Program-made: the position numbers and the translations under genes
Shown: positions 13,894 through 47,031 of the stretch, piece after piece
Layout: the number at the start of each line of letters is the position of its first letter
How positions within the stretch are numbered: the first letter of the stretch is position 1
Notes under the pieces: model-generated
The model's database searches: none
What the model was told of the DNA's origin: nothing
The model's input: only the letters and a program-made list of their open reading frames with translations
Assembly: GCF_023161965.1 (NCBI RefSeq)
Contig: NZ_JALNTY010000002.1
Location: 398,552 to 462,551 of the forward strand
Origin: Anaerosoma tenue
GTDB lineage: Bacteria > Actinomycetota > Coriobacteriia > Anaerosomatales > Anaerosomataceae
DNA: 64,000 nucleotides
Direction of reading: 5' to 3'

Positions 13894-16800
13894 CTACTCC
13901 ACACCGCCGCTCGAGCCGAGCCCGAAGAACCTCTCGAAGAACTCGCCGAGCTTCCCGAGCACGCGCTGCTTCTTCTCGCCGTGGCCACCCTCTGGGCTAA
14001 AGCGCGACGCTGGCGGCAGCACCTTGGTGATCGCAGTCCCGGTGGTGCGGATCGCGCCGTCTCGGAACGCTGTCTCGATGAAGGCGCGTGTCTCATCCGG
14101 ACGCAGGCCCTCGGACTCGATGATGGCAGCAAGCTCGGCCTCGCGCCGAGCCAGGATGAACGCCTGCCACTCCTCATCGATCGCGCCGCTCACCGACACC
14201 GAGTCCACGAACGCCTCGATCAGGTCCTTCTTGTTGCGCAGGCTCGGGCTGGCGTCGATCGCGCGGCTGATGGAGGCGCGGATCTCCTTGTCGGTGCCAT
14301 CGCGGTGGGCCGCACGCCACTTCTCCACCAGCATGAGGATGTAGTCCACATTGATCTCGACCTGCTTGATGAGCTCGATCTCAAAGACGATATCGTCGTT
14401 TATCGACTCCTTCTCGGCCCGGCCCCGGTACTCCGCGTAGAGGTCGAGGTAGACGCTGCGGTAGTCCTGCCCCTGACGCTCGGTCAAGAGCTCGCTTCCG
14501 GCGAAGTCGTCAAAGGCCGTGAGGATGTTCTGCAGGCGCAGGATGGCGCCGAAGAGCGCGATGAACTCCTTCTGAGCGCTCTCGCCCACGACCGGTGTGC
14601 CGAGCGGGTACTTCTCGAGCAGCTCACCCACCTTCTCGGCGTACTCGGCGTAGTACTCGCGGTACGGTTTGAGCAGCACGATGCCGCATGCGTCCTTGTT
14701 GCCGAAAAGTGCGATGGCGTCGTTGGTCCGCTGCTCCAGGTCACGGAACGAGACGATGTTGCCGTAGGTCTTTACCGAGTTGAGGATGCGGTTGGTACGC
14801 GAATACGCCTGGATGAGGCCGTGCATCCGCAGGTTCTTGTCGACGAAGAGCGTGTTGAGCGTGGTGGCATCAAAGCCGGTGAGGAACATGTTCACCACGA
14901 TGACCAGGTCGATCTGGCGGCCGCGCAGACGTAGCGAGAGGTCCTTGTAGTAGTTCTGGAATTTGTCGGTCGAGGTGTCAAAACTCGTGCCGAAGTGAGC
15001 GTTGTAGTCACGGATCGCATCGTCGAGGAAGTCGCGAGAGGACTGGTCGAGCGCGCCGGTCTCGAAACCCTCCTCGTCGAGATAGCCCTCGATCTCCTCG
15101 TTGGCCGCATACGAGTAGATGAGGCCCACCGTGAGCCGACGGTCGGGCGTGAGCGCCTCCTGCTGTTTCTTGAACTCGAGGTAGTAGCGCTTGGCCGCCT
15201 CGATCGACGCGGTGGCGAAGAGCGCGTTGAAGCCGCGCATCCGTTTGCCGGCAAGCGCATAGTGCTCGGCGCGCTTGGTCTTCTGGTCGAAGTGCTCGAG
15301 CGTGTAGGCAACGACCTGCTCGATGCGCTCGGGCGCCATGAGCGCACGCTCGGTGTCGATGGCGGCCACCTGCGCATCGGTGATGTGCTCCGGCAGCTTG
15401 ATGGTGTTCACGTAGTCGATACGGAACGGGAGCACGTTCCTGTCGGTGATAGCATCGACGATCGTGTAGGTGTGCAGCTTCTCACCAAAGGCTTGCTCGG
15501 TGGTCTGCAGGCCCGGTCTGCCTGCCCCCGCGTTCTCGGCGAAGATCGGCGTGCCGGTGAAGCCGAAGAGGTTGTAGCGCTTGAACGCCTTGGTGATCGC
15601 CGAGTGCATCTCGCCGAACTGCGAGCGATGACACTCATCGAAGATGATCACGATGTGGCCCGAGTAGATCACGTGGCCCTTGTTGGCCGAGATGAAGTTG
15701 GAGAGCTTCTGGATCGTGGTGATGATGATCCGCGCACCGGGGTCCTCGAGCTGTTTCTTGAGCACCGCGGTCGAAGTGTTGGAGTTGGCGGCGCCTCGCT
15801 CGAAGCGGTCGTACTCGCGCATCGTCTGGTAGTCGAGGTCCTTGCGGTCCACGACGAAGAGCACCTTGTCCACGCTCGGGATGTTGGTGGCGAGTTGCGC
15901 GGCCTTGAAGCTCGTGAGCGTCTTGCCCGAGCCGGTGGTGTGCCACACGTAGCCGCCTGCGGCTAGCGTTCCGAGCTGCCGGTAGTTGGTGGAGACCTCG
16001 ATCTTCTGCAGGATCCGCTCGGTGGCCACGATCTGGTACGGGCGCATCACCAGCAGCATGCGGTCTGCGGTGAGCACGCAGTACTTCGTGAGGATGTTCA
16101 ACAGCGCATGCTTGGCGAAGAACGTCTTGGCAAAGGCCGTGAGCTCCTGGATCGGCCGGTTGGTGGCATCGGCCCACCACGAGGTGAACTCGAATGTGTT
16201 CGACGTCTTGCGGGTCCGCTTGGAGCCGGCCATCTCACTCAAGTGCTGCTGGCGGGTGGTGTTGGAGTAGTACTTGGTGAGCGTGCCGTTGCTGATCACG
16301 AAAAGCTGCACGTACTCGAAGAGGCCGGAGCCTGCCCAGAAGCTGTCGCGCTGGTAGCGGTCGATCTGGTTGAATGCCTCGCGGATGTCCACACCCCGGC
16401 GCTTGAGCTCGATGTGCACCATCGGCAGGCCGTTCACGAGCACGGTTACGTCGTAGCGGTTGGATCGCGCCGCGCCGCCCTCACCCTCGGCGATCTCGTA
16501 CTGGTTGATGACCTGCAGCCGGTTGTTGTGGATGTTGGTCTTGTCGATGAGCGAGATGTTCTTCGTGGAGCCGTCGTCGCGTTTCAGGATCTGGACATGG
16601 TCCTCCTGGATGCGCACGGTCTTCTCGATGATGCCCTCGTTGGCGCCCGCGATCCTTTCGGTGAAGAAACGACCCCACTCACTGTCACTGAAGGTGATCG
16701 CGTTCAGCTGCTCGAGCTGCGCGCGGAGGTTGGCGATGAGCTCGGCCTCGCTCGTGATGGGCAGGTACTCGTATGCCTGCGATCCCAGGAGCCGAATGAG

Positions 16801-16929
16801 CTCCCGCTCGAGCGCAGCCTCAGACTGGTAGGCGGCCTCCTCGACTGCCTCCGGCACGTACTCGGCGACGACCGTGCTCTCCGCGCTCACGGCGATCGGG
16901 TCGTAGCGTGTGGTCCGGGCGTCGGTCAT
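13894..16929 (-). CDS. hsdR: Type I restriction enzyme, R subunit
   Basis: 1011 residues, full length. The N-terminal nuclease part has YDVTVLVNGLPMVHIELKRRG, whose E-x-K with the upstream Asp fits the PD-(D/E)XK site. The SF2 translocase has Walker A TTGSGKT near residue 340, DECHRSQ (motif II), GFTGTP (motif III) and later helicase motifs ending in FLTGFDA and AYSRTNR. It cuts unmethylated DNA far from the recognition site after ATP-driven translocation, in complex with HsdM and HsdS. Its start overlaps the AbiEii-like stop by four bases, so it is translated with the AbiE-like pair and not next to hsdM/hsdS, which lie 4 kb away on the same strand. Confidence 0.93.
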   Translation of the reverse strand: MTDARTTRYDPIAVSAESTVVAEYVPEAVEEAAYQSEAALERELIRLLGSQAYEYLPITSEAELIANLRAQLEQLNAITFSDSEWGRFFTERIAGANEGIIEKTVRIQEDHVQILKRDDGSTKNISLIDKTNIHNNRLQVINQYEIAEGEGGAARSNRYDVTVLVNGLPMVHIELKRRGVDIREAFNQIDRYQRDSFWAGSGLFEYVQLFVISNGTLTKYYSNTTRQQHLSEMAGSKRTRKTSNTFEFTSWWADATNRPIQELTAFAKTFFAKHALLNILTKYCVLTADRMLLVMRPYQIVATERILQKIEVSTNYRQLGTLAAGGYVWHTTGSGKTLTSFKAAQLATNIPSVDKVLFVVDRKDLDYQTMREYDRFERGAANSNTSTAVLKKQLEDPGARIIITTIQKLSNFISANKGHVIYSGHIVIIFDECHRSQFGEMHSAITKAFKRYNLFGFTGTPIFAENAGAGRPGLQTTEQAFGEKLHTYTIVDAITDRNVLPFRIDYVNTIKLPEHITDAQVAAIDTERALMAPERIEQVVAYTLEHFDQKTKRAEHYALAGKRMRGFNALFATASIEAAKRYYLEFKKQQEALTPDRRLTVGLIYSYAANEEIEGYLDEEGFETGALDQSSRDFLDDAIRDYNAHFGTSFDTSTDKFQNYYKDLSLRLRGRQIDLVIVVNMFLTGFDATTLNTLFVDKNLRMHGLIQAYSRTNRILNSVKTYGNIVSFRDLEQRTNDAIALFGNKDACGIVLLKPYREYYAEYAEKVGELLEKYPLGTPVVGESAQKEFIALFGAILRLQNILTAFDDFAGSELLTERQGQDYRSVYLDLYAEYRGRAEKESINDDIVFEIELIKQVEINVDYILMLVEKWRAAHRDGTDKEIRASISRAIDASPSLRNKKDLIEAFVDSVSVSGAIDEEWQAFILARREAELAAIIESEGLRPDETRAFIETAFRDGAIRTTGTAITKVLPPASRFSPEGGHGEKKQRVLGKLGEFFERFFGLGSSGGVE

Positions 16930-34182: not shown

Positions 34183-36072
34183 TTAGGGCGTCTCGGGATC
34201 CTCTTCGCCGCCGTCGCCGTCAGGCAGCTTGCCCACCTCGATCTCAACTTGGTCGCCACGGGACGCCGACGAACCGGGGATCGGGAACTGGTTGATCACG
34301 ATCCCGTCGTCCGGGCTGCTCACGTAGACCACCTTGGGCGTGAGGCCGGCATCGGTGAGCGCCTTCTTGGCGTCCGCCTCGTTCATGGTCCGGACGTCGG
34401 GCACGATGATGACCTCGGGACCCTTGGAGACCTCGAGCGTCACCGTGCTCCCTGCCTTGAGCACGACGTTCGCGTCGGGGCTTTGTGAGATCACGCTGCC
34501 CTTGGCCACGGTGTCGCTGAACGACTCGGTGGTCTTCACGTTAAGCCCGATGCCTTCAAGCTCGGCGGTGGCGTTGGCGACCGTCTTGCCGGTCACATCC
34601 GGCACCTCCACCTGCTCGACACCGGCCGAGACATACAGGACCACGCTGGTGCCCTTGGGCACGGTCGCACCGGCAGCCGGCTCGGTCCGTATCACGAGAC
34701 CCTTCTCGATCTCGGCGTTGTTCTCGTCGCGCGTCCTATCGTACTCGAGATCGTCTGACGCCTTCAGCATGTCTATGGCGGTCTGCTCGGACATCTCGGT
34801 GAGATCGGGCACGGCGACCTCGGCAACCCCGAGCGACACCACGATGTTGACGGCGGTCCCGGGCTCGACTTGCTCGCCGGCCGGCGGATCCTGGCTGATG
34901 ATCATGCCTATCGCGACCGTGTCGCTGTTCTCGGTACCCACCACCCCAAGCGTGAGGCCTGCGGTCTCGAGCTCCGCGGCCGCCTGCTCCTCCGTGAGTC
35001 CGGAGAGCGTGGGAACGACCACGCCGCCGCCATCGAAGGCGCCCAGCGCGAACGCCACGCCAAGGCCGGCGGCGATGAGGACGGCTACGAGCGCGACCCA
35101 CGCCCAGGGGCTCATGCGTCGCTCGGGCACCGGCTGCATGCGCGGCGAGCCGGTGGGGCGAGAGCTCGCCGAGTTCTCCACCGGCGGCAGCACGCTCGTC
35201 TGGTCCGCCGCCGCAGCCCCGCCGTAGATGCCGCCCACGGCCGACTGACCGCCGGCGACACGCCGCAGGTCGTCACGCATCTCGCTGGCCGACGCATAGC
35301 GATCGGCGGGGTTCTTGCGCAGCGATCGCAGGATGACCGCCTCGAGCGCCGGAGGGACCGCCGCACGCACCTGACGCGGCGGCACCGGCTCGTCGTTCAC
35401 CTGCTTGAGCGCGGTCGCCACCGGGGTGTCGCCGTCGAAGGGCAGGGTGCCGGTCGCGAGCTCGTAGAGCGTCACGCCGAGCGAGTAGAGGTCCGAGGCG
35501 GGCGTGAGCGGCTTCCCCTGCGCCTGCTCCGGGCTGATGTACTGGGCCGTGCCGAGCACGGAGCCCGTCTGTGTCATGGTGGTGTTGCCGGCGCGGGCGA
35601 TGCCGAAGTCCATCACCTTGATCGTGCCGTCGGGCGTGAGGACGATGTTGTGCGGCTTGATGTCGCGGTGGATGATGTCGTATCCATGCGCCACCGTGAG
35701 CGCACCGCACACCTGGGCGCCATACTCGGCCACCTTGTGCGGGTCGAGCGGACCCTGCCTGCTCACCAGCGATTTGAGATCGGTGCCCTTCACGTACTCC
35801 ATGACGATGTAGTACGTGTCACCGTCGCGGCCCCAGTCGTACATGTTCACGATGTTGGGGTGTGACAGGTTGGCGGCGGCCTGCGCCTCCTGGCGGAAAC
35901 GGGCCACGAAGTTGGGGTCTGACGCATACCGGGCATGCAGCACCTTGACCGCGACGGTGCGGCCGAGGACCTCGTCGACGGCCTTGAACACGTCGGCCAT
36001 GCCGCCCGACCCGATCTTCTCCGTCACCTTGTATCTGCGTCCGAATATGAGATCTTCCACCAGTGACTCCAC
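34183..36072 (-). CDS. pknB: PASTA-domain serine/threonine protein kinase (PknB type)
   Basis: 629 residues. The kinase domain (about 12-275) has GSGGMADVF, catalytic HRDIKPHN, DFG in VMDFGIA and the activation segment with TTMTQTGS. One membrane helix (about 325-345) leads to four PASTA repeats (about 350-625) that bind peptidoglycan or lipid II outside the cell. Start GTG at 36072 has GGAGG three bases upstream; GTG at 36060 has GGAG at a more normal distance. It is last in the block FhaA-FhaB-PP2C-SEDS/PBP-PknB and coordinates wall growth with division. Confidence 0.93.
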   Translation of the reverse strand: MESLVEDLIFGRRYKVTEKIGSGGMADVFKAVDEVLGRTVAVKVLHARYASDPNFVARFRQEAQAAANLSHPNIVNMYDWGRDGDTYYIVMEYVKGTDLKSLVSRQGPLDPHKVAEYGAQVCGALTVAHGYDIIHRDIKPHNIVLTPDGTIKVMDFGIARAGNTTMTQTGSVLGTAQYISPEQAQGKPLTPASDLYSLGVTLYELATGTLPFDGDTPVATALKQVNDEPVPPRQVRAAVPPALEAVILRSLRKNPADRYASASEMRDDLRRVAGGQSAVGGIYGGAAAADQTSVLPPVENSASSRPTGSPRMQPVPERRMSPWAWVALVAVLIAAGLGVAFALGAFDGGGVVVPTLSGLTEEQAAAELETAGLTLGVVGTENSDTVAIGMIISQDPPAGEQVEPGTAVNIVVSLGVAEVAVPDLTEMSEQTAIDMLKASDDLEYDRTRDENNAEIEKGLVIRTEPAAGATVPKGTSVVLYVSAGVEQVEVPDVTGKTVANATAELEGIGLNVKTTESFSDTVAKGSVISQSPDANVVLKAGSTVTLEVSKGPEVIIVPDVRTMNEADAKKALTDAGLTPKVVYVSSPDDGIVINQFPIPGSSASRGDQVEIEVGKLPDGDGGEEDPETP

Positions 36073-36208: not shown

Positions 36209-38953
36209 CTACCGGTATCCTGCCGAGATCGCCGCCTCCAGTACACCTCGTGCCGCCGGAGCCGCCACACTGCCGCCTACCCCCGAGTTCTCGAGGATGA
36301 TAACCACCGCGACCCGTGGTTCCTCGGCCGGCGCGAAGGCGATGAACCAGGCGTGCGTCTCCACCGACTTGCCGGCCTCGGCGGTGCCGGTCTTGCCGGC
36401 CACCGTCACGCCGTCGAGTGCGGCGCGCCCTCCCGACCCGGACCTCACCACGCCCACCATCGCCTCAGTGACCCGGGCGGCGGTCTGGGGGTCGAGCGCC
36501 TGCGTCCAGGGCCGGGGTGTGGTGCGTGTGATGATCCGTCCCGAGCGGTCGGTTATGGCGTCGACGAGATAGGGGCGCATCACCGTTCCGTCGTTGCCGA
36601 TGCCGGCCGTCACGAGCGCCATCTGCAGCGGCGTCACCTGGGGCCCGGGCGGGCTCTCGTGCTCGCCCACGGGCTGTCCCACGCCCGCCCATGCCGTCTC
36701 CCACACGGTCATCTCCTGCGGGTCCGGCATGAGCGATCTGGCCACGGGCAGGTCGAACGGCACGTTGGAGCCGATGCCGAACTCCTCGCACTGGTCCACG
36801 AGCACGCTTGCGCCGATATCGTGGGCGAGCTGCCCGAACACCGTGTTGACCGAGCTCGCGGTCGCTTTGCGGAGGTCGATGGCGCCGTACGAGCTGCCTC
36901 CGTAGTTGGTCACGGGGGCGCCGCCTATGTCGATACGTGCGGGACCCGTGTATGTGGTGTCGAGGCTCGCCATGCCGCTTTCGAGGGCTGCCGAGAGCGT
37001 GACGACCTTGAATGTCGATCCAGGTGGGTACAGGCTCGACCCGGAGCGGTCGAGGAGAGGCGCCCCGCTCCCGTCGCTCGAAAGCCGTTCCCACTCCTCA
37101 TCGATCGCGGCCGGGTCGTATGCGGGGTTCGACGCGTATGCGAGCACCGCCCCGGTGGAGGGGTCGATCGCCACGCAGGCGCCCCGCCGGTCCCCGAGGG
37201 CAGTCTCAGCGGCCGCCTGCACGCGTGAGTCGATCGTGAGTCGCACGTCGTTCCCGGCCACGGGCGTGCCCGCGGCCGCCTCGATCATGTCCGCGAAGGT
37301 GGCGAAATCGCGCTTGCCGGCAAGGGCCTCGTTGGCGGTGGCCTCGATCCCCGCGCGCCCGTATCGGATGCTGTAGTAGCCGAGCACGTGAGCCGCACTC
37401 GTGCCCTGCGGGTATTCCCGGACGTACACGGAACCGTCCTTCACAGATCTGGCCAGGACCACGCCGTCGGATGTGATGATGGCGCCCCGCTCCTGCTTCA
37501 GCTCGGCCGTGAGGCCACGGGTGTTCGCAGGGTCGGTCTTGAGGTCGGCGGCGGCCACGACCTGCACGTAGGTGAGGTTGACGACGAGCGCAACCATGAG
37601 CACGGCCAGGAAGCCCGCCACACCGGTGAGCCGCCGGGTGAGCGCGAGGCGGCCGAGCAACCCGGCGCCGCCGGTCACCGCGATCTCCGTCTCGCTGCCG
37701 GTGCCCGCGTCGCCGGCACGCATCAGCAGTCCGAGGAGGATGAAGTTGGAGAGCAGCGAGCTGCCACCATAGCTCACGAACGGCAGAGTGATGCCGGTCA
37801 GCGGGATCAGCCGGGTCACGCCGCCCACGATCACGAACGCCTGGAGGCCGAGGGTGGCCACCAGGCCCGTGGCCATGATCGCCGCGGCGTCCGAGCGCGC
37901 GCGTGTCGCGGTGGCGAGTCCCCGCATGCAGAACACCAGATACGCGATGATCAGCGCGGCGCCGCCGAGCAGCCCGAGCTCCTCGGCCACGGCGGTGAAG
38001 ATGAAGTCGGTCTCCACGAAGGGGATGCGACCGGGCAGGCCGCGTCCGATGCCGAGCCCGATGACGCCGCCGTCGGCGAGCGCGAACAGCGACTGCACCA
38101 GCTGGTAACCACGACCCGCAGCGTCGGCGAAGGGGTCGAGCCAGATGGCGACCCGCTGCTGGACATGCGCGAACATCATGTATGCCGCCGATGCTCCCGC
38201 CGCGAAGAGCCCGAGGCCGGTGAGGACGTAAGCGGGCCTGCCCGTTCCCGCGTAGAGCATCACCAGGAACGTCCCGAAGAAGAGCAGGCTCGAACCCAGG
38301 TCCTTCTCGGCAACGAGGACGACGAGGCTGATCGCCCACATCATCAGCAGCGGCCCCAGGTGTTTCGCCGGCGGGAGCCACACGCCAAGGACCCGCGTGG
38401 TGGCCACCGACAAGACCTCGCGCTTCTCGGCAAGGTAGGCGCCGAGGAACACGACGATCAGGATCTTGGCCACCTCGGCAGGCTGGAACGAGAACCCCGC
38501 GAACCGGAGCCACAGCTTGGCGCCGTTGACCTCCACGCCGACGAGGGCGGGCAGCACGAGCAACACGATGCCCGCGAGTGCGATCGTGTACTTGTAGCGG
38601 CCCAGGCGCTCGAGCGACGGGACGACGGCAAGCGTGGCGACGAGTGCGGCGATACCCGCCAGGACCCAGAGGACCTGGCTGCCGGCAAGCTCGGGATCGA
38701 GCCGCGTGATCGTCGCGAGCCCGATCCCGGTGAGCAGGAACGCGATGGGCATGAGCGCCGGATCGGCGCCCCGGGCCAGGAAGCGGGCGGCCACATGCGC
38801 GGCGAGGAAGCAGGCGAAGAGGCCCAGCGGCACGAGGAGGTCGCCTATCGCCACGGTGCCGCCCGCCGACCCCTTCACCAGGGCGAACAGCACCACGACC
38901 GCAGGGGCGGCGGCGAGAAGCAGGAAGAGTTCGGTGTCGCGCCTGCTCTTCAT
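36209..38953 (-). CDS. SEDS glycosyltransferase (RodA/FtsW) fused to class B penicillin-binding protein
   Basis: 914 residues in one uninterrupted frame. Residues 1-415 are a polytopic SEDS protein: EVNGAKLWLRFAGFSFQP and FVETDFIFTAVAEELG are RodA/FtsW signatures. A further helix at about 443-465 anchors a transpeptidase domain (about 485-912) with all three active-site motifs: S646-T-F-K649, S701-V-N703 and K854-T-G-T. In most actinobacteria these are two adjacent genes, rodA and pbpA; here they are one polypeptide making and cross-linking glycan strands. It follows the PP2C gene by six bases. The dimerisation part of the PBP is short compared with PBP2. Confidence 0.93.
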   Translation of the reverse strand: MKSRRDTELFLLLAAAPAVVVLFALVKGSAGGTVAIGDLLVPLGLFACFLAAHVAARFLARGADPALMPIAFLLTGIGLATITRLDPELAGSQVLWVLAGIAALVATLAVVPSLERLGRYKYTIALAGIVLLVLPALVGVEVNGAKLWLRFAGFSFQPAEVAKILIVVFLGAYLAEKREVLSVATTRVLGVWLPPAKHLGPLLMMWAISLVVLVAEKDLGSSLLFFGTFLVMLYAGTGRPAYVLTGLGLFAAGASAAYMMFAHVQQRVAIWLDPFADAAGRGYQLVQSLFALADGGVIGLGIGRGLPGRIPFVETDFIFTAVAEELGLLGGAALIIAYLVFCMRGLATATRARSDAAAIMATGLVATLGLQAFVIVGGVTRLIPLTGITLPFVSYGGSSLLSNFILLGLLMRAGDAGTGSETEIAVTGGAGLLGRLALTRRLTGVAGFLAVLMVALVVNLTYVQVVAAADLKTDPANTRGLTAELKQERGAIITSDGVVLARSVKDGSVYVREYPQGTSAAHVLGYYSIRYGRAGIEATANEALAGKRDFATFADMIEAAAGTPVAGNDVRLTIDSRVQAAAETALGDRRGACVAIDPSTGAVLAYASNPAYDPAAIDEEWERLSSDGSGAPLLDRSGSSLYPPGSTFKVVTLSAALESGMASLDTTYTGPARIDIGGAPVTNYGGSSYGAIDLRKATASSVNTVFGQLAHDIGASVLVDQCEEFGIGSNVPFDLPVARSLMPDPQEMTVWETAWAGVGQPVGEHESPPGPQVTPLQMALVTAGIGNDGTVMRPYLVDAITDRSGRIITRTTPRPWTQALDPQTAARVTEAMVGVVRSGSGGRAALDGVTVAGKTGTAEAGKSVETHAWFIAFAPAEEPRVAVVIILENSGVGGSVAAPAARGVLEAAISAGYR

Positions 38954-38959
38954 GACCGG

Positions 38960-40039
38960 TTACGGGGCCGTCGTCGCGGAGGTCTCTTCCGCCAGCGCCC
39001 GGTAGGTCTGCACGAGGTCGCGCGCCTCGGCGATCCCGTCAAGCTGGATGCCTGTGGACAGCCGCGCCGCCATGATCGGGCTCAGGGCGCTCACCGGTAT
39101 GGTGGTGACCTCGGAACGCTCGTGAAGGCTGAGGCCGGCGAACGTGCCCGGCACGCCCTCGTAGATGGCCACGTAACCACCCTCGTCGATCACGTACGCT
39201 TTCGAGCGTGCGTATGAGTCGGCCACCCACGCCGCTCCGCCCACCACCGCGAGCGCCGCAAGCAGCCACAGGAGCCGCACGCCCCACCGGCGAGCGCCGG
39301 GGGCGCCCCCCGCGCGGCGGGGTCGCGTTCCGATGTCCACGACCACGACGGTGATGTTGTCCTGCCCGCCCGCCTCCAGGGCGCTGTCGATGAGTTCGCG
39401 CACGGCCACGGATGGGGTGGGGGCAGTGGCCAACACGTGCTCGATGTCCTCGTCACGCACCATCGATGTGAGGCCGTCTGTTGTGAGCAGCAGCCGGTCT
39501 CCGGCTGCCGCCTCGGCCTCGAAGGTGTCGGCGAGCATATTGGGGTCTGACCCGAGCGCCCGGGTGATGACGCTCCGATTGGGGTGTGAACGTGACTCCT
39601 CGGCGGTGATGCGCCCCTGTCGAACCAGGTCGGCCACCATGGAGTGGTCCTGGGTGAGCTGCTCGAGGGTCCCGAGATGCAGCAGATACGCGCGGCTGTC
39701 GCCTACGTGGGCGACTGTCAGATGCGTGCCCTCGACCATCGCAGCCGTGAGCGTCGTGCCCATGCCGGAACGGCCACGACCGGACGTGGCGGCGTCTATC
39801 ACCGCCGAGTTCGCCTGCCGCACCGCGCGACCGAGGGCCTTGAGGTCGCCGGAGCGCGGCGCCGCTTCGAGCAGCGTGTCGATGGCGAGCGAGCTGGCCA
39901 CTTCGCCGGCCTGATGACCGCCCAGCCCGTCGGCGACCGCGAACAGCGGGGGAGCGAGCAGGAACGCGTCCTCGTTCACCGACCGCACCTTGCCGACGTG
40001 ACTGTCACCCGCGTATCGCGACTCGCCCTGCGCGCTCAC
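38960..40039 (-). CDS. PP2C-type protein serine/threonine phosphatase (PstP type)
   Basis: 359 residues. The PP2C domain (about 1-240) shows VRSVNEDAF, VADGLGGHQAGE, VGDSRAYLL, DGLT and DNITVVVVD, which hold the metal centre. A membrane helix (about 268-290) follows and a short external domain ends the protein. It reverses the phosphorylation made by PknB. Its ATG overlaps the FhaB stop by four bases. Confidence 0.93.
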   Translation of the reverse strand: MSAQGESRYAGDSHVGKVRSVNEDAFLLAPPLFAVADGLGGHQAGEVASSLAIDTLLEAAPRSGDLKALGRAVRQANSAVIDAATSGRGRSGMGTTLTAAMVEGTHLTVAHVGDSRAYLLHLGTLEQLTQDHSMVADLVRQGRITAEESRSHPNRSVITRALGSDPNMLADTFEAEAAAGDRLLLTTDGLTSMVRDEDIEHVLATAPTPSVAVRELIDSALEAGGQDNITVVVVDIGTRPRRAGGAPGARRWGVRLLWLLAALAVVGGAAWVADSYARSKAYVIDEGGYVAIYEGVPGTFAGLSLHERSEVTTIPVSALSPIMAARLSTGIQLDGIAEARDLVQTYRALAEETSATTAP

Positions 40040-40452
40040 AGCCTCACCACCTCGATCCGGTTGCGGCCGAGCTCGATCGCGTCGCCTGCCGACAGCGGCA
40101 TCGGCCGGGTGACCGGCTGACCGTTGACGACCGTCCCGTTGGTGGAGTCGAGGTCCTCGATGATGAAGCCGTTGTCCGACACGACGACCCGCGCATGGGT
40201 GGACGACACGAAGTCGTCAGCGATCACGAGGTCCGCGTCGGCGGAGCGGCCGATGAGGACCGGCCCGCTGAGCGGCACCGTGACGCCGGTGATCTCACGC
40301 GGCCCCCGGGTCACACGCAGCGCCAGCCCGCTCGCAGGTCGACGCACGCCGCCCCTCACCTTGCCGATGCCCGATCTGATAGCGGCGAGCAGGAAGAGGT
40401 AGAGAAGTCCGATCAGCACGATCCGCCCGAACAGCAGGACGATGTCGACCAT
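40036..40452 (-). CDS. FHA-domain membrane protein (FhaB type)
   Basis: 138 residues. One N-terminal membrane helix (IVLIGLLYLFLLAAI), then an FHA domain (about 50-135): GRSADADLVIADDFVSSTHARV, then DLDSTNGTVVNG. FHA domains bind phosphothreonine, so this is a target and scaffold of PknB; in mycobacteria FhaB/FipA links the kinase to division. GAGGGGG lies upstream of the ATG, overlapping the FhaA end region. Confidence 0.9.
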   Translation of the reverse strand: MVDIVLLFGRIVLIGLLYLFLLAAIRSGIGKVRGGVRRPASGLALRVTRGPREITGVTVPLSGPVLIGRSADADLVIADDFVSSTHARVVVSDNGFIIEDLDSTNGTVVNGQPVTRPMPLSAGDAIELGRNRIEVVRL

Positions 40453-40455
40453 GAC

Positions 40456-41169
40456 TCACCCCCTCGGCTCGTGGTACACGAGACGGACGAGACCGATCTC
40501 GATGACGTCCCCGTCGTGCAGCCGCCGACGCTCCACCGGTTCGCCGTTGACGCGCGTGCCGTTGGTGGAGCCCAGATCGACGATGGCCCAGCCCTCGTCG
40601 AGGCGCATGAACGCGGCATGACGCCGTGAGACATTGACGTCGGCGATATGGATCTGACACTCGGCCAGACGACCCACGGTCACTTCGTCTCCGCTCAGGA
40701 CGACGTCGTGCCCGAGATCGCTCATGGTGACGGTGGCGAGACCGGCGCCTCCATCACTCCCGGCCGGACCCGGCCTGGCGGCGCTGACGGCAGGCTCGGG
40801 CTCCTCGGTGAGCGACGCGCTCACGCGGAAGCGTCCCAGTCGCAGGTCGTCGTGCACGACGAACGAGACGCTCGGGCGCGTGCGCAGGTGATAACCGCGC
40901 TCGCGGGCGTGATCGGTCACATAGGTGGCGAGCTCCCCGCCGAGCGTGGCGCGGAACGAGCCGAGCTGATCGTGGTCCTCACGGGAGAGCGCGATGGTGT
41001 ACGCGGTGGGAGCGTAGACCGTTCCTACACCGAGGGTACGCCCGTCGTCGGCAGCCCGCGCGAGGGCCCTCGCGAGCTCGACGGGCTGCACAGGGGAGCG
41101 GAACGCTCCCGCGAACATGCCCTCGATCGCGCCGCCGATCCGGTCTTCGAAATCGGAGAGGATACCCAT
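40456..41169 (-). CDS. FHA-domain protein with N-terminal DUF3662 (FhaA type)
   Basis: 237 residues: DUF3662-like domain at about 1-120 (FEDRIGGAIEGMFAGAF, then PVELARALARAADD), a linker, and a C-terminal FHA domain (about 160-235) with DVNVSRRHAAFM and DLGSTNGTRVNG. In mycobacteria FhaA binds the phosphorylated MviN pseudokinase and controls lipid II flipping. Here it opens the fhaA-fhaB-pstP-SEDS/PBP-pknB series. Confidence 0.92.
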   Translation of the reverse strand: MGILSDFEDRIGGAIEGMFAGAFRSPVQPVELARALARAADDGRTLGVGTVYAPTAYTIALSREDHDQLGSFRATLGGELATYVTDHARERGYHLRTRPSVSFVVHDDLRLGRFRVSASLTEEPEPAVSAARPGPAGSDGGAGLATVTMSDLGHDVVLSGDEVTVGRLAECQIHIADVNVSRRHAAFMRLDEGWAIVDLGSTNGTRVNGEPVERRRLHDGDVIEIGLVRLVYHEPRG

Positions 41170-43730: not shown

Positions 43731-44624
43731 CTACTCGGTAAGCGCTTCGCCCGCCGTATAGTCATATCCCGAGCCAAGCAGGCTGTGCGGGATCATGTAC
43801 ACGATGAACGTGACGAGTCCGGCGATCACAATCGTGCGACGCGCCCACGGGCCGTCCTTGCGGCTTCCGGTGTTAAAGAAGACCGCCACGAGCCACAGAA
43901 CGAGTTCTATCGTGACCTTGTTGTCCGTGAGGTCCCAGCCCAGCGGTATGCCGGCCCAGTACACACCGAACGCGTACTTCTGCATGATCGGGCCGAAGAT
44001 GAAGCCGCCCAGAAGGAGCGTGATCAGTGCTGCCCACATCATCCAGCGCGGCTTGCCCCCGGGCCTGAGCGCCTCGAGCGCGGCGCGGATGCCAAACAAC
44101 ATGGACAGCATTATCGTCACCACATGCGGCAGGACGACCGTCAACATCGGCATGTCGCCGCGATACCGCGATACGATCGCCTCGCCGGCGCCGTCGTCGA
44201 TCACGTAGTTCTCGCCATCGTACTGGAGGTGCACGAAGTACGCGTACTTGCCGGCCATCTCACTGAGTCCGGGCAGTCTGGCGGCAAGGAGCTCGACCTC
44301 TTCGGTGTCGCCCATACTCTCGAGCTCAACGGTCTGGATCTCCATGTCCACGACCTGCGGCTCATCGTCCGAGTTCACCCGCCAGTACTCGACGTAGCCT
44401 GTGGTGCCCTCCGGGGCGTCGACACCAATCGCCAGCTCCTCATCAAGCACCCGGCTGCGGATGAACTCATACTCCACGACCTCGCCGTCGCTCAGCGCCA
44501 ATTCACCTGCGAGCGGGTCGTACGGGTCGTTCTCATAGAGCACGTAGAACCCGGTGATGACGATCGCGATCAGCCACAAGAGCACGCTGACCACCCGCGG
44601 GTGGGATTCCATCCACTGCCTCAT
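43731..44624 (-). CDS. Membrane protein with extracytoplasmic domain, function unknown
   Basis: 297 residues. An N-terminal helix (about 12-30) is followed by a soluble acidic domain (about 31-155) and four helices (about 160-180, 193-212, 238-255, 265-288). The soluble part is beta-rich by appearance. I do not recognise the family. It lies 112 bases downstream of the multiheme cytochrome on the same strand, so a link to electron transfer at the membrane is possible but unproven; it has no heme or quinone motif that I can see. Confidence 0.72.
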   Translation of the reverse strand: MRQWMESHPRVVSVLLWLIAIVITGFYVLYENDPYDPLAGELALSDGEVVEYEFIRSRVLDEELAIGVDAPEGTTGYVEYWRVNSDDEPQVVDMEIQTVELESMGDTEEVELLAARLPGLSEMAGKYAYFVHLQYDGENYVIDDGAGEAIVSRYRGDMPMLTVVLPHVVTIMLSMLFGIRAALEALRPGGKPRWMMWAALITLLLGGFIFGPIMQKYAFGVYWAGIPLGWDLTDNKVTIELVLWLVAVFFNTGSRKDGPWARRTIVIAGLVTFIVYMIPHSLLGSGYDYTAGEALTE

Positions 44625-44736: not shown

Positions 44737-47031
44737 CTACGGGATCTGGATGAACGTATCCGGGGTGCGGATCGGGTAGTAGCCCCAGTTGTGCTCGTCG
44801 TACGGCTCGGTGGCGGTACCCCAGGCCTCGCGCACGTAGTAGTCGGTGCCGCTCACCGGGAGAGAGAGGTCGCCGTAGCCGCTGAACGGATACTCATGGA
44901 GGACGGTCCAGTGGGGGTCGCCGCTGGGAGCGCCGCGCCACACCTGCCACTCGACCCATTCGTCAGGTGCGAGCGTGCCCGTGTTGAAGCGGACGGTCCC
45001 GCTCCCACCCACGACGGTGAAGCTCACGGTGTTCGTGGCCTCCACGTTGCCGGACCAGTCTTCCGACCAGAACTCGAGCGTGTGTGGGAAGCTGCCGCTC
45101 GGAGCGAGGACCGTCACGCGGGACCCCGTCTGCACCGGGCCATCGTCCAGTGAGTAGTACGTGGTCTTGGCTCCGAGGGAGCTCGCGTCGGTCGCCGTCA
45201 GCGTGATGTACACGGTGTTGTAGTAGTACGTGTCGCCAGCGACGGCGTTGGATGTGGTCACCGGCGGTGTGGTGTCCTCGGCGATCGTGAAGCTGGCGGT
45301 CTTCACCGGTGATTCGACGTTGCCCGCCTGATCCACCGACCAGAACTCCAGCGTATGCGCGCCGGGTGTCGTGATGGTAAGGCTGCCGCCTACCTCCGTG
45401 TCGCCGCCGTCGAGGCGGTAGAACGTCGTCCCGACGCCCACCTTGCCGCTGTCCGTGATGGAGAACTCGATGAACGCGGCGCCGACGTAGCTCGCGATGG
45501 CGTCCGACGAGGTCACGGGCGCCGTGGTGTCGCTGGCGCTGTACAAGGTGTGGCAGTTGGCGCACTTGGACTGATTGGGTGGGCCGATACCTGAGGTGTG
45601 ACACAGACCGCACTGCCCGCCCCCGTAGGAGTCCGCCCAGGGGTCATGCGCCTCGGCCACGCCGTCATGGATGGTGACATGGCAGCCGCCCTGCTGGCAG
45701 CTGTTGTCCCACGAGCCCAGCGTGTCGTACGGGGTCGTGTGGCACGCCAGGCACTGTTGCGCGTGGACGGCGTTCAGGTCCGTCGTGTGACAGATGGTGC
45801 AGTCGACGTACACCACGTAGGGCTCCGTGGGGAATCCGATCAGCGCGTCGTCATGCTGCCCCGGTTCGAATATCATCACATCGCCGCTCCCGGGCACGGC
45901 GTCATGCCGCAGGGAATGGCAGTTCAGACAGAGGCTGTACGGCTCGGCGGGTTCCGGCGCGCGGACGAGGAAGCTCGCGTTCTCGCTCTCGTGCGGGAAG
46001 ACCTGGAAGCGGGGGTTGTCGTACGGGCTGGCGTCCTCACCGTAGGCGGTCACCCGGAACTCCTGACCCGCTGCTGTCAACGCCGGGTTAGTGCGACGGC
46101 CCGACGGCCCTACGTCACGGGCGTCCTCGTGGCACTGTTGGCAGAGCGGCCCGCGCCCCTCTTGCAGCGGTGTCTTGAGGGTCGGCTCGGTGACATCCGG
46201 CCCCGGCATGACGTAACCGCGATTGCTCTGGCCGAGACTGCCGAGCTCCGTCTCAGCCGAGCCGACGCCCGTCACAACCGGGGTGCTCGCGTAGGTGTAC
46301 GTGTCGTCCTGGGCGACGGGATGCTCTTCGATCACGCCCGAACCCTCGGCGTGCTGCAGCAGGCGGCCCTCGTGGCACGATGCGCACCACCCCACTCCGT
46401 ACGCTTCAACAGACACGTCCGCGCCGGACGGCTGCTGGCGGAGCAGGCGGTTCGTTGGGATGCCGATACCGGTGTCGCTGGTCTCGGACGCGCGCAACCG
46501 ATCGCCGAGGAAGGGGTCGACGGTCTGTGAGTCGTGTGCCGAGTGGCAGTCGATGCAGGTGAGCGTCCCGTTGGGGCCCATGAACGACCTGGAGGTGGCT
46601 CCGCCGTCGCTCGCCCCACCGGGGACGACGTCCGTGGTGTTGATGCGGTGGGTGGCCCCCGGGTCCTGTCCTGTCCGGGCCTTGATGACTCCGTACACAG
46701 CAGCCCCGCCGGTGCCGTCGTGGCAGGAGGTGCACATGTCGCTCACGGTCTGCTCAGGCAGCAGGTTCTCGCTGCTGACCGCCTGGTGCGTGACGTGGCA
46801 GGTGAGGCACTTGGTCGTTCCGGGCGTATAGCCCCCGTGTGGCCCCTTTCGGGTTGCGGCCAGCAAGGCGGGGTCGCCGCCGGGCTCGAGGATGTCCGTC
46901 TCGGAGGCTCCGTGACAGTCGACGCAGTCCGTGCGCGAGGGATCCGTAGAGTCGCCGGGATACGCGTATGCCGCGCCCGGGGTAACGAGCGCGGCCGCGA
47001 TGGCGATCATCAATACGAGCGAGCGGGACAT
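44737..47031 (-). CDS. Secreted multiheme cytochrome c with Ig-like repeats
   Basis: 764 residues with a signal peptide (about 1-23, cut after AYA). Eleven CXXCH motifs begin near 36, 75, 100, 159, 216, 297, 368, 411, 427, 474 and 490, and one CX4CH (C-Q-Q-G-G-C-H) begins near 445. After 500 come two tandem OmpL47/bacterial-Ig-like repeats (each with TLEFWS, then AGNVES or GNVEATN) and a unique C-terminal domain (about 676-764). The heme part is periplasmic or outside the cell; the repeats probably bind the wall or a surface. It suggests extracellular electron transfer or a terminal reductase. Confidence 0.92.
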   Translation of the reverse strand: MSRSLVLMIAIAAALVTPGAAYAYPGDSTDPSRTDCVDCHGASETDILEPGGDPALLAATRKGPHGGYTPGTTKCLTCHVTHQAVSSENLLPEQTVSDMCTSCHDGTGGAAVYGVIKARTGQDPGATHRINTTDVVPGGASDGGATSRSFMGPNGTLTCIDCHSAHDSQTVDPFLGDRLRASETSDTGIGIPTNRLLRQQPSGADVSVEAYGVGWCASCHEGRLLQHAEGSGVIEEHPVAQDDTYTYASTPVVTGVGSAETELGSLGQSNRGYVMPGPDVTEPTLKTPLQEGRGPLCQQCHEDARDVGPSGRRTNPALTAAGQEFRVTAYGEDASPYDNPRFQVFPHESENASFLVRAPEPAEPYSLCLNCHSLRHDAVPGSGDVMIFEPGQHDDALIGFPTEPYVVYVDCTICHTTDLNAVHAQQCLACHTTPYDTLGSWDNSCQQGGCHVTIHDGVAEAHDPWADSYGGGQCGLCHTSGIGPPNQSKCANCHTLYSASDTTAPVTSSDAIASYVGAAFIEFSITDSGKVGVGTTFYRLDGGDTEVGGSLTITTPGAHTLEFWSVDQAGNVESPVKTASFTIAEDTTPPVTTSNAVAGDTYYYNTVYITLTATDASSLGAKTTYYSLDDGPVQTGSRVTVLAPSGSFPHTLEFWSEDWSGNVEATNTVSFTVVGGSGTVRFNTGTLAPDEWVEWQVWRGAPSGDPHWTVLHEYPFSGYGDLSLPVSGTDYYVREAWGTATEPYDEHNWGYYPIRTPDTFIQIP

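Follow-up and report, generated by a model that had tools for sequence, protein, structure and literature searches.

Most bacteria build their walls with pairs of a SEDS glycosyltransferase and a class B penicillin-binding protein (bPBP), and it is still debated how these pairs couple polymerisation to crosslinking. In the actinobacterial pstP/pknB locus, as described for M. tuberculosis, the pair is RodA and PbpA, and the phosphoprotein PbpA is dephosphorylated in vitro by the PstP phosphatase of M. tuberculosis (PMC6554272). It has also been reported that engineered RodA-PBP2 fusions, joined in the SEDS-PBP order that we describe below for a natural protein, are active both in vivo and in vitro (PMC6207328, PMC10449877), and that the D262A substitution in E. 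coli RodA abolished the polymerase activity of such a RodA-PBP2 fusion (PMC6207328). In addition, a 2023 cryo-EM paper stated that some single ORFs code for a SEDS-PBP fusion, and gave the Rhodococcus RHA1 genome as its reference (PMC10449877). Here we examined a locus of this kind and its distribution in the Coriobacteriia. Whereas RodA and PbpA are encoded by two genes in M. tuberculosis, one gene encodes both in all Coriobacteriia genomes that we opened.

The window (the whole stretch of DNA that was analysed, 64,000 nucleotides) had been given an initial sequence-only reading, which placed a SEDS half and a PBP half in a single 914-residue frame without naming a strand. We found the frame to be uninterrupted and on the minus strand (38953..36209, ATG...TAG, 914 codons, 914 amino acids). 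A motif scan of the PBP half gave S646-T-F-K649, S701-V-N703 and K854-T-G, so that the transpeptidase motifs stand where that reading had put them (S646, S701-V-N, K854-T-G). The SEDS signatures, which it had called intact, are so: W271-L-D-P-F, G-Y-Q, T315-D316-F-I-F and PFVSYGG were all recovered, and D316 corresponds to E. coli RodA D262 in an alignment to RodA/FtsW proteins of solved structures. Three Pfam domains were matched above their cut-offs (Table 1), and no GT51 polymerase domain was among the Pfam matches of the protein. Taken together, the domains and motifs support a fusion of a SEDS glycosyltransferase and a class B PBP, both complete as judged by these features. The fusion missed the NCBIfam equivalog cut-offs for rodA_shape (206.7 against 336.7), ftsW (241.7 against 337.5) and pbp2_mrdA (317.3 against 455). 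Opposite the gene runs an antisense open frame of 609 codons (window 37388-39217, plus strand); long antisense frames are common opposite high-GC genes, and nothing marks this one as a gene.

Table 1. Features of the fusion gene and its neighbours (window positions; residues are those of the fusion protein)
Feature	Position	Strand	Basis
pknB, PASTA Ser/Thr kinase	34183..36072	-	NF033483, 705.7 bits against a cut-off of 450; 4 PASTA stretches
rodA-pbpA fusion gene	36209..38953	-	SEDS glycosyltransferase plus class B PBP, 914 aa; Pfam domains; fused in 97/97 class genomes opened
SEDS half, residues 1-413	37715..38953	-	PF01098 (FTSW_RODA_SPOVE) at 89-413, 251.2 bits against a cut-off of 26.4; catalytic D316
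Cytosolic linker, residues 414-441	37631..37714	-	Conservation and model
Class B PBP membrane anchor, residues 442-468	37550..37630	-	Hydropathy; model helix 429-466
PBP pedestal / dimerisation domain, residues 489-570	37244..37489	-	PF21922 (PBP_dimer_2) at 489-570, 73.1 bits against a cut-off of 27
Transpeptidase domain, residues 591-905	36239..37183	-	PF00905 (Transpeptidase) at 591-905, 196 bits against a cut-off of 22.1; SxxK S646, SxN S701, KTG K854
pstP, PP2C phosphatase	38960..40039	-	NF033484, 249.6 bits against a cut-off of 230; conserved neighbour
fhaB, FHA-domain protein	40036..40452	-	PF00498; conserved neighbour
fhaA, FhaA_N plus FHA	40456..41169	-	PF12401, PF00498
Second Ser/Thr kinase, without PASTA, upstream of fhaA	41307..43016	-	PF00069; gene order in related loci

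The gene occupies the place of rodA and pbpA in the actinobacterial block, as had been proposed from the letters: its neighbours and their order, fhaA-fhaB-pstP-rodA-pbpA-pknB, are those of the M. tuberculosis RodA and PbpA locus (PMC6554272), and this order is identical in fused and unfused loci. Unlike the M. tuberculosis-type locus, the fusion locus has an extra kinase upstream of fhaA, and we found none between the PBP and pknB; the upstream position is kept in at least 28 Coriobacteriia loci, whereas Actinomycetes loci carry the additional kinase downstream of the PBP gene instead. Also in the window, all on the minus strand, we noted a 764-aa multihaem (CXXCH) cytochrome whose C-terminal half appears by eye to contain repeat segments (44737-47031), an adjoining 297-aa protein without a Pfam match (43731-44624) and a type I restriction enzyme R subunit (HsdR) of 1011 aa (13894-16929). 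We counted three genes for SEDS proteins and six transpeptidase domains in the genome to which the window belongs, and this genome retains separate FtsW/FtsI and RodA/MrdA genes. The other two SEDS genes are separate from their PBP genes and, judged by coordinates and strand, each has its PBP gene on the upstream side. Since the C-terminus of a SEDS protein and the N-terminus of a class B PBP both lie in the cytosol, SEDS-then-PBP is the sole order that can be fused without an extra membrane helix. From gene order and this known topology we infer that the fhaA-fhaB-pstP-rodA-pbpA-pknB locus has the fusable order, unlike the other two SEDS clusters of the genome.

The survey of the Coriobacteriia that the sequence-only reading had recommended matched the fusion in 139 of the 149 genomes sampled, and the reading frame was joined in every genome in which the junction was opened (97/97, separately assembled, single-contig genomes included). 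The stop or frameshift between the halves that this reading had warned of is absent from all 97, in agreement with its description of a natural fixed-ratio fusion, the encoded ratio being 1:1. Among the ten class genomes without a match, pstP was also absent in eight and stood at a contig edge in two; since pstP was missing or edge-placed too, assembly gaps, and not separate genes, are probably the cause. Two families with long linkers were rechecked at frame level, and all 50 loci of the batch with both halves were fused. Compared with the nearest relative (L009), dN/dS was about 0.04 in the SEDS half, about 0.05 in the PBP half and, as calculated from 28 codons, about 0.10 in the linker. Synonymous change thus far outweighs amino acid change in all three parts, which indicates purifying selection on the linker as well as on each half.

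Outside the Coriobacteriia, every one of the more than 40 loci opened at frame level held two adjacent genes, consistent with the earlier remark that RodA/FtsW proteins and class B PBPs are normally encoded separately. No fusion was present among the matches listed in the phylum sample (396 genomes) or in 76 Mycobacteriaceae-like genomes; this part of the survey covered the Actinomycetota and, as its figures are those of the matches listed, rare fusions elsewhere are possible. One Mycobacteriaceae-like genome (G545) appeared to hold a second fusion, with an open-frame length of 972 aa for both halves, and was rejected because a stop, which this length measure reads through, lies between them; L073, L075 and L076, which looked fused in tblastn, proved to be separate genes when opened. 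In unfused relatives the PBP start often lies inside the SEDS gene stop (ATGA, GTGA), and in L075, L076, L128 and L148 a single stop codon separates SEDS and PBP frames that are already in register. Such overlapping starts and lone in-register stops are an obvious route to fusion. In each half-tree the fused sequences fell into a single clade, with weaker support for SEDS (0.73) than for PBP (0.995); this clade stands apart from the FtsW, RodA, FtsI and MrdA paralogues, and the fusion halves grouped with RodA and PbpA of the pstP locus (support 0.71 and 0.92). Because both half-trees give one fused clade, a single ancient fusion is the simplest reading, and the phylogeny suggests that adjacent or overlapping actinobacterial rodA and pbpA most likely fused once, in the ancestor of the Coriobacteriia.

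About 28 residues separate the last SEDS helix from the PBP helix. Among 58 fusions, D415, L433 and G434 of this linker are invariant, and R435, A437 and R441 are nearly so. The linker is 30-60 residues longer in families f18 and f22, the former of which includes the A. parvulum protein. We observed that longer linkers (L120-L124, fusion residues ~414-500) are rich in Ser, Gly and Ala. Structure prediction, another of the checks suggested at the outset, gave a whole-chain model (72 sequences) with a pLDDT of 92.9 and a pTM of 0.80, in which low confidence is found mainly at linker residues ~416-428. In this model the SEDS half has about 12 membrane helices, a 10-helix core with two extra at the N-terminus, and a single helix (429-466) that bears conserved residues runs from the linker into the PBP membrane helix. 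Residues 1-471 folded without an alignment reached a pLDDT of 45, and that model was set aside. When the fold of the full-length model was compared with solved structures, the transpeptidase reached Z scores of 59.2 (4MNR) and 53.6 (M. tuberculosis PbpA); the PBP half took up the list, and the SEDS half is assigned from sequence.

Our main reading, to which we give a probability of roughly 0.87, is that the protein is a fused RodA-PbpA orthologue acting as a single-chain peptidoglycan synthase. It builds on what was observed: the uninterrupted frame with its domains and catalytic residues, fixation throughout the class, shared synteny and purifying selection. The N-terminal SEDS domain would use D316 to polymerise lipid II on the outer side of the membrane. 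After the last SEDS helix the chain is predicted to re-enter the cytosol, pass through the short linker and recross the membrane once as the PBP anchor, which would put the pedestal on the outer side together with the transpeptidase domain, whose S646 may crosslink the newly made strand there. The chain presumably remains intact in the cell and would operate beside the separate FtsW/FtsI and RodA/MrdA genes, and the surrounding PknB/PstP/FHA signalling genes probably regulate it. At a guess, the linker might interact with the kinase, the phosphatase or the FHA proteins encoded by the adjacent genes. We think it unlikely that the permanent 1:1 tether and the class-specific linker (D415, LGR 433-435, R441; longer in two families) form a rewired synthase, controlled by PknB/PstP/FHA, that replaces regulated RodA-PbpA assembly.

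Several other explanations of the joined frame were considered. Two genes might have been fused artificially by assembly or sequencing, and the L128 and L148 loci are indeed one stop codon short of fusion; however, the joined frame recurs in all genomes opened, single-contig ones among them, which excludes artefact or chance and makes the probability of this explanation practically negligible. That the protein is a divergent pair with one half catalytically dead and serving only as a scaffold is barely plausible, given that all 58 fusions compared keep D316, S646, K649, S701, N703 and K854 unchanged and that the PBP half of the A. parvulum homologue was crystallised with several beta-lactams.

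The fusion might also be translated and then cut into two working proteins; signal peptidase, acting after the PBP membrane helix, would be one candidate. The invariant A468 lies where this helix ends on the outer side and is a possible -1 residue; however, most of the unfused bPBPs shown, which we take to be membrane-anchored, also have alanine there. The site is therefore not fusion-specific, and we rejected A468 as a processing site. Furthermore, the purifying selection on the linker and its conserved residues argue against cutting, which we regard as highly improbable. A further alternative, that the gene yields the full fusion and, through an internal start within the linker, a separate PBP as well, is very unlikely: a GTG at residue 426 in the window lies 6 bases after GGAG, a weak SD-like site, and starts with an SD match of at least 4 were present in 13 of 48 linkers, but the background for such starts elsewhere in the same genes is 18%, so that linkers are only slightly richer. 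The position of the start is not conserved among the fusions, and on this ground the internal start was rejected. We thus retain the intact single-chain synthase as the preferred reading.

A single chain fixed in a whole class provides native, stoichiometric material for structural and enzymatic study; its permanent tethering narrows the range of compatible coupling models, and the role of the linker is open to testing. Since the Coriobacteriia include common human gut genera, the fusion protein is likely a beta-lactam target in these genera. In a literature search we found no published account of a SEDS-PBP fusion as a trait of a whole class, or of a conserved cytosolic linker motif in such fusions. 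The existence of the fusions was already known; what the present analysis adds is their class-wide fixation, likely single origin and conserved linker.

Structures from Eggerthella lenta (4MNR) and Atopobium parvulum (4JBF, 4QJG, 4R0Q, 4R1G, 4R23, 4R3J, 4RA7, 4N1X) are end-to-end matches to the PBP halves of fusions in this class. Deposited as 'peptidoglycan glycosyltransferase', they match the PBP halves of the fusions of G082 and G090 (E-values near 1e-290). In the alignment shown for A. parvulum, identity is complete from about residue 505 on, and the numbering of the A. parvulum entries, 523-950, is consistent with the 954-aa fusion. These structures are truncated domains, several with beta-lactams, and for neither the SEDS half nor the linker of a natural fusion did we find a solved structure. 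PBP halves of two such proteins, beta-lactam complexes among them, have therefore been available from the PDB since 2013, and, together with the mention in PMC10449877, this means that a natural SEDS-PBP fusion is not new in kind. The natural fusions of that passing remark are the same kind of protein, and none was among the matches listed in the 76 Mycobacteriaceae-like genomes. M. tuberculosis-type PbpA shares the PBP dimer family PF21922 with the fusion. Class A PBPs likewise hold polymerase and transpeptidase in one chain, although their polymerase is GT51, which is unrelated to SEDS and has no match in the fusion. RodA-PBP2 of E. coli and SpoVE-SpoVD of B. subtilis, both engineered, also join SEDS and bPBP in one chain that is functional in cells and, for RodA-PBP2, in vitro (PMC6207328, PMC10449877). 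Their linkers, however, are man-made, GGGSx3 in the E. coli construct of PMC6207328, whereas the linker of the natural fusion has conserved residues.
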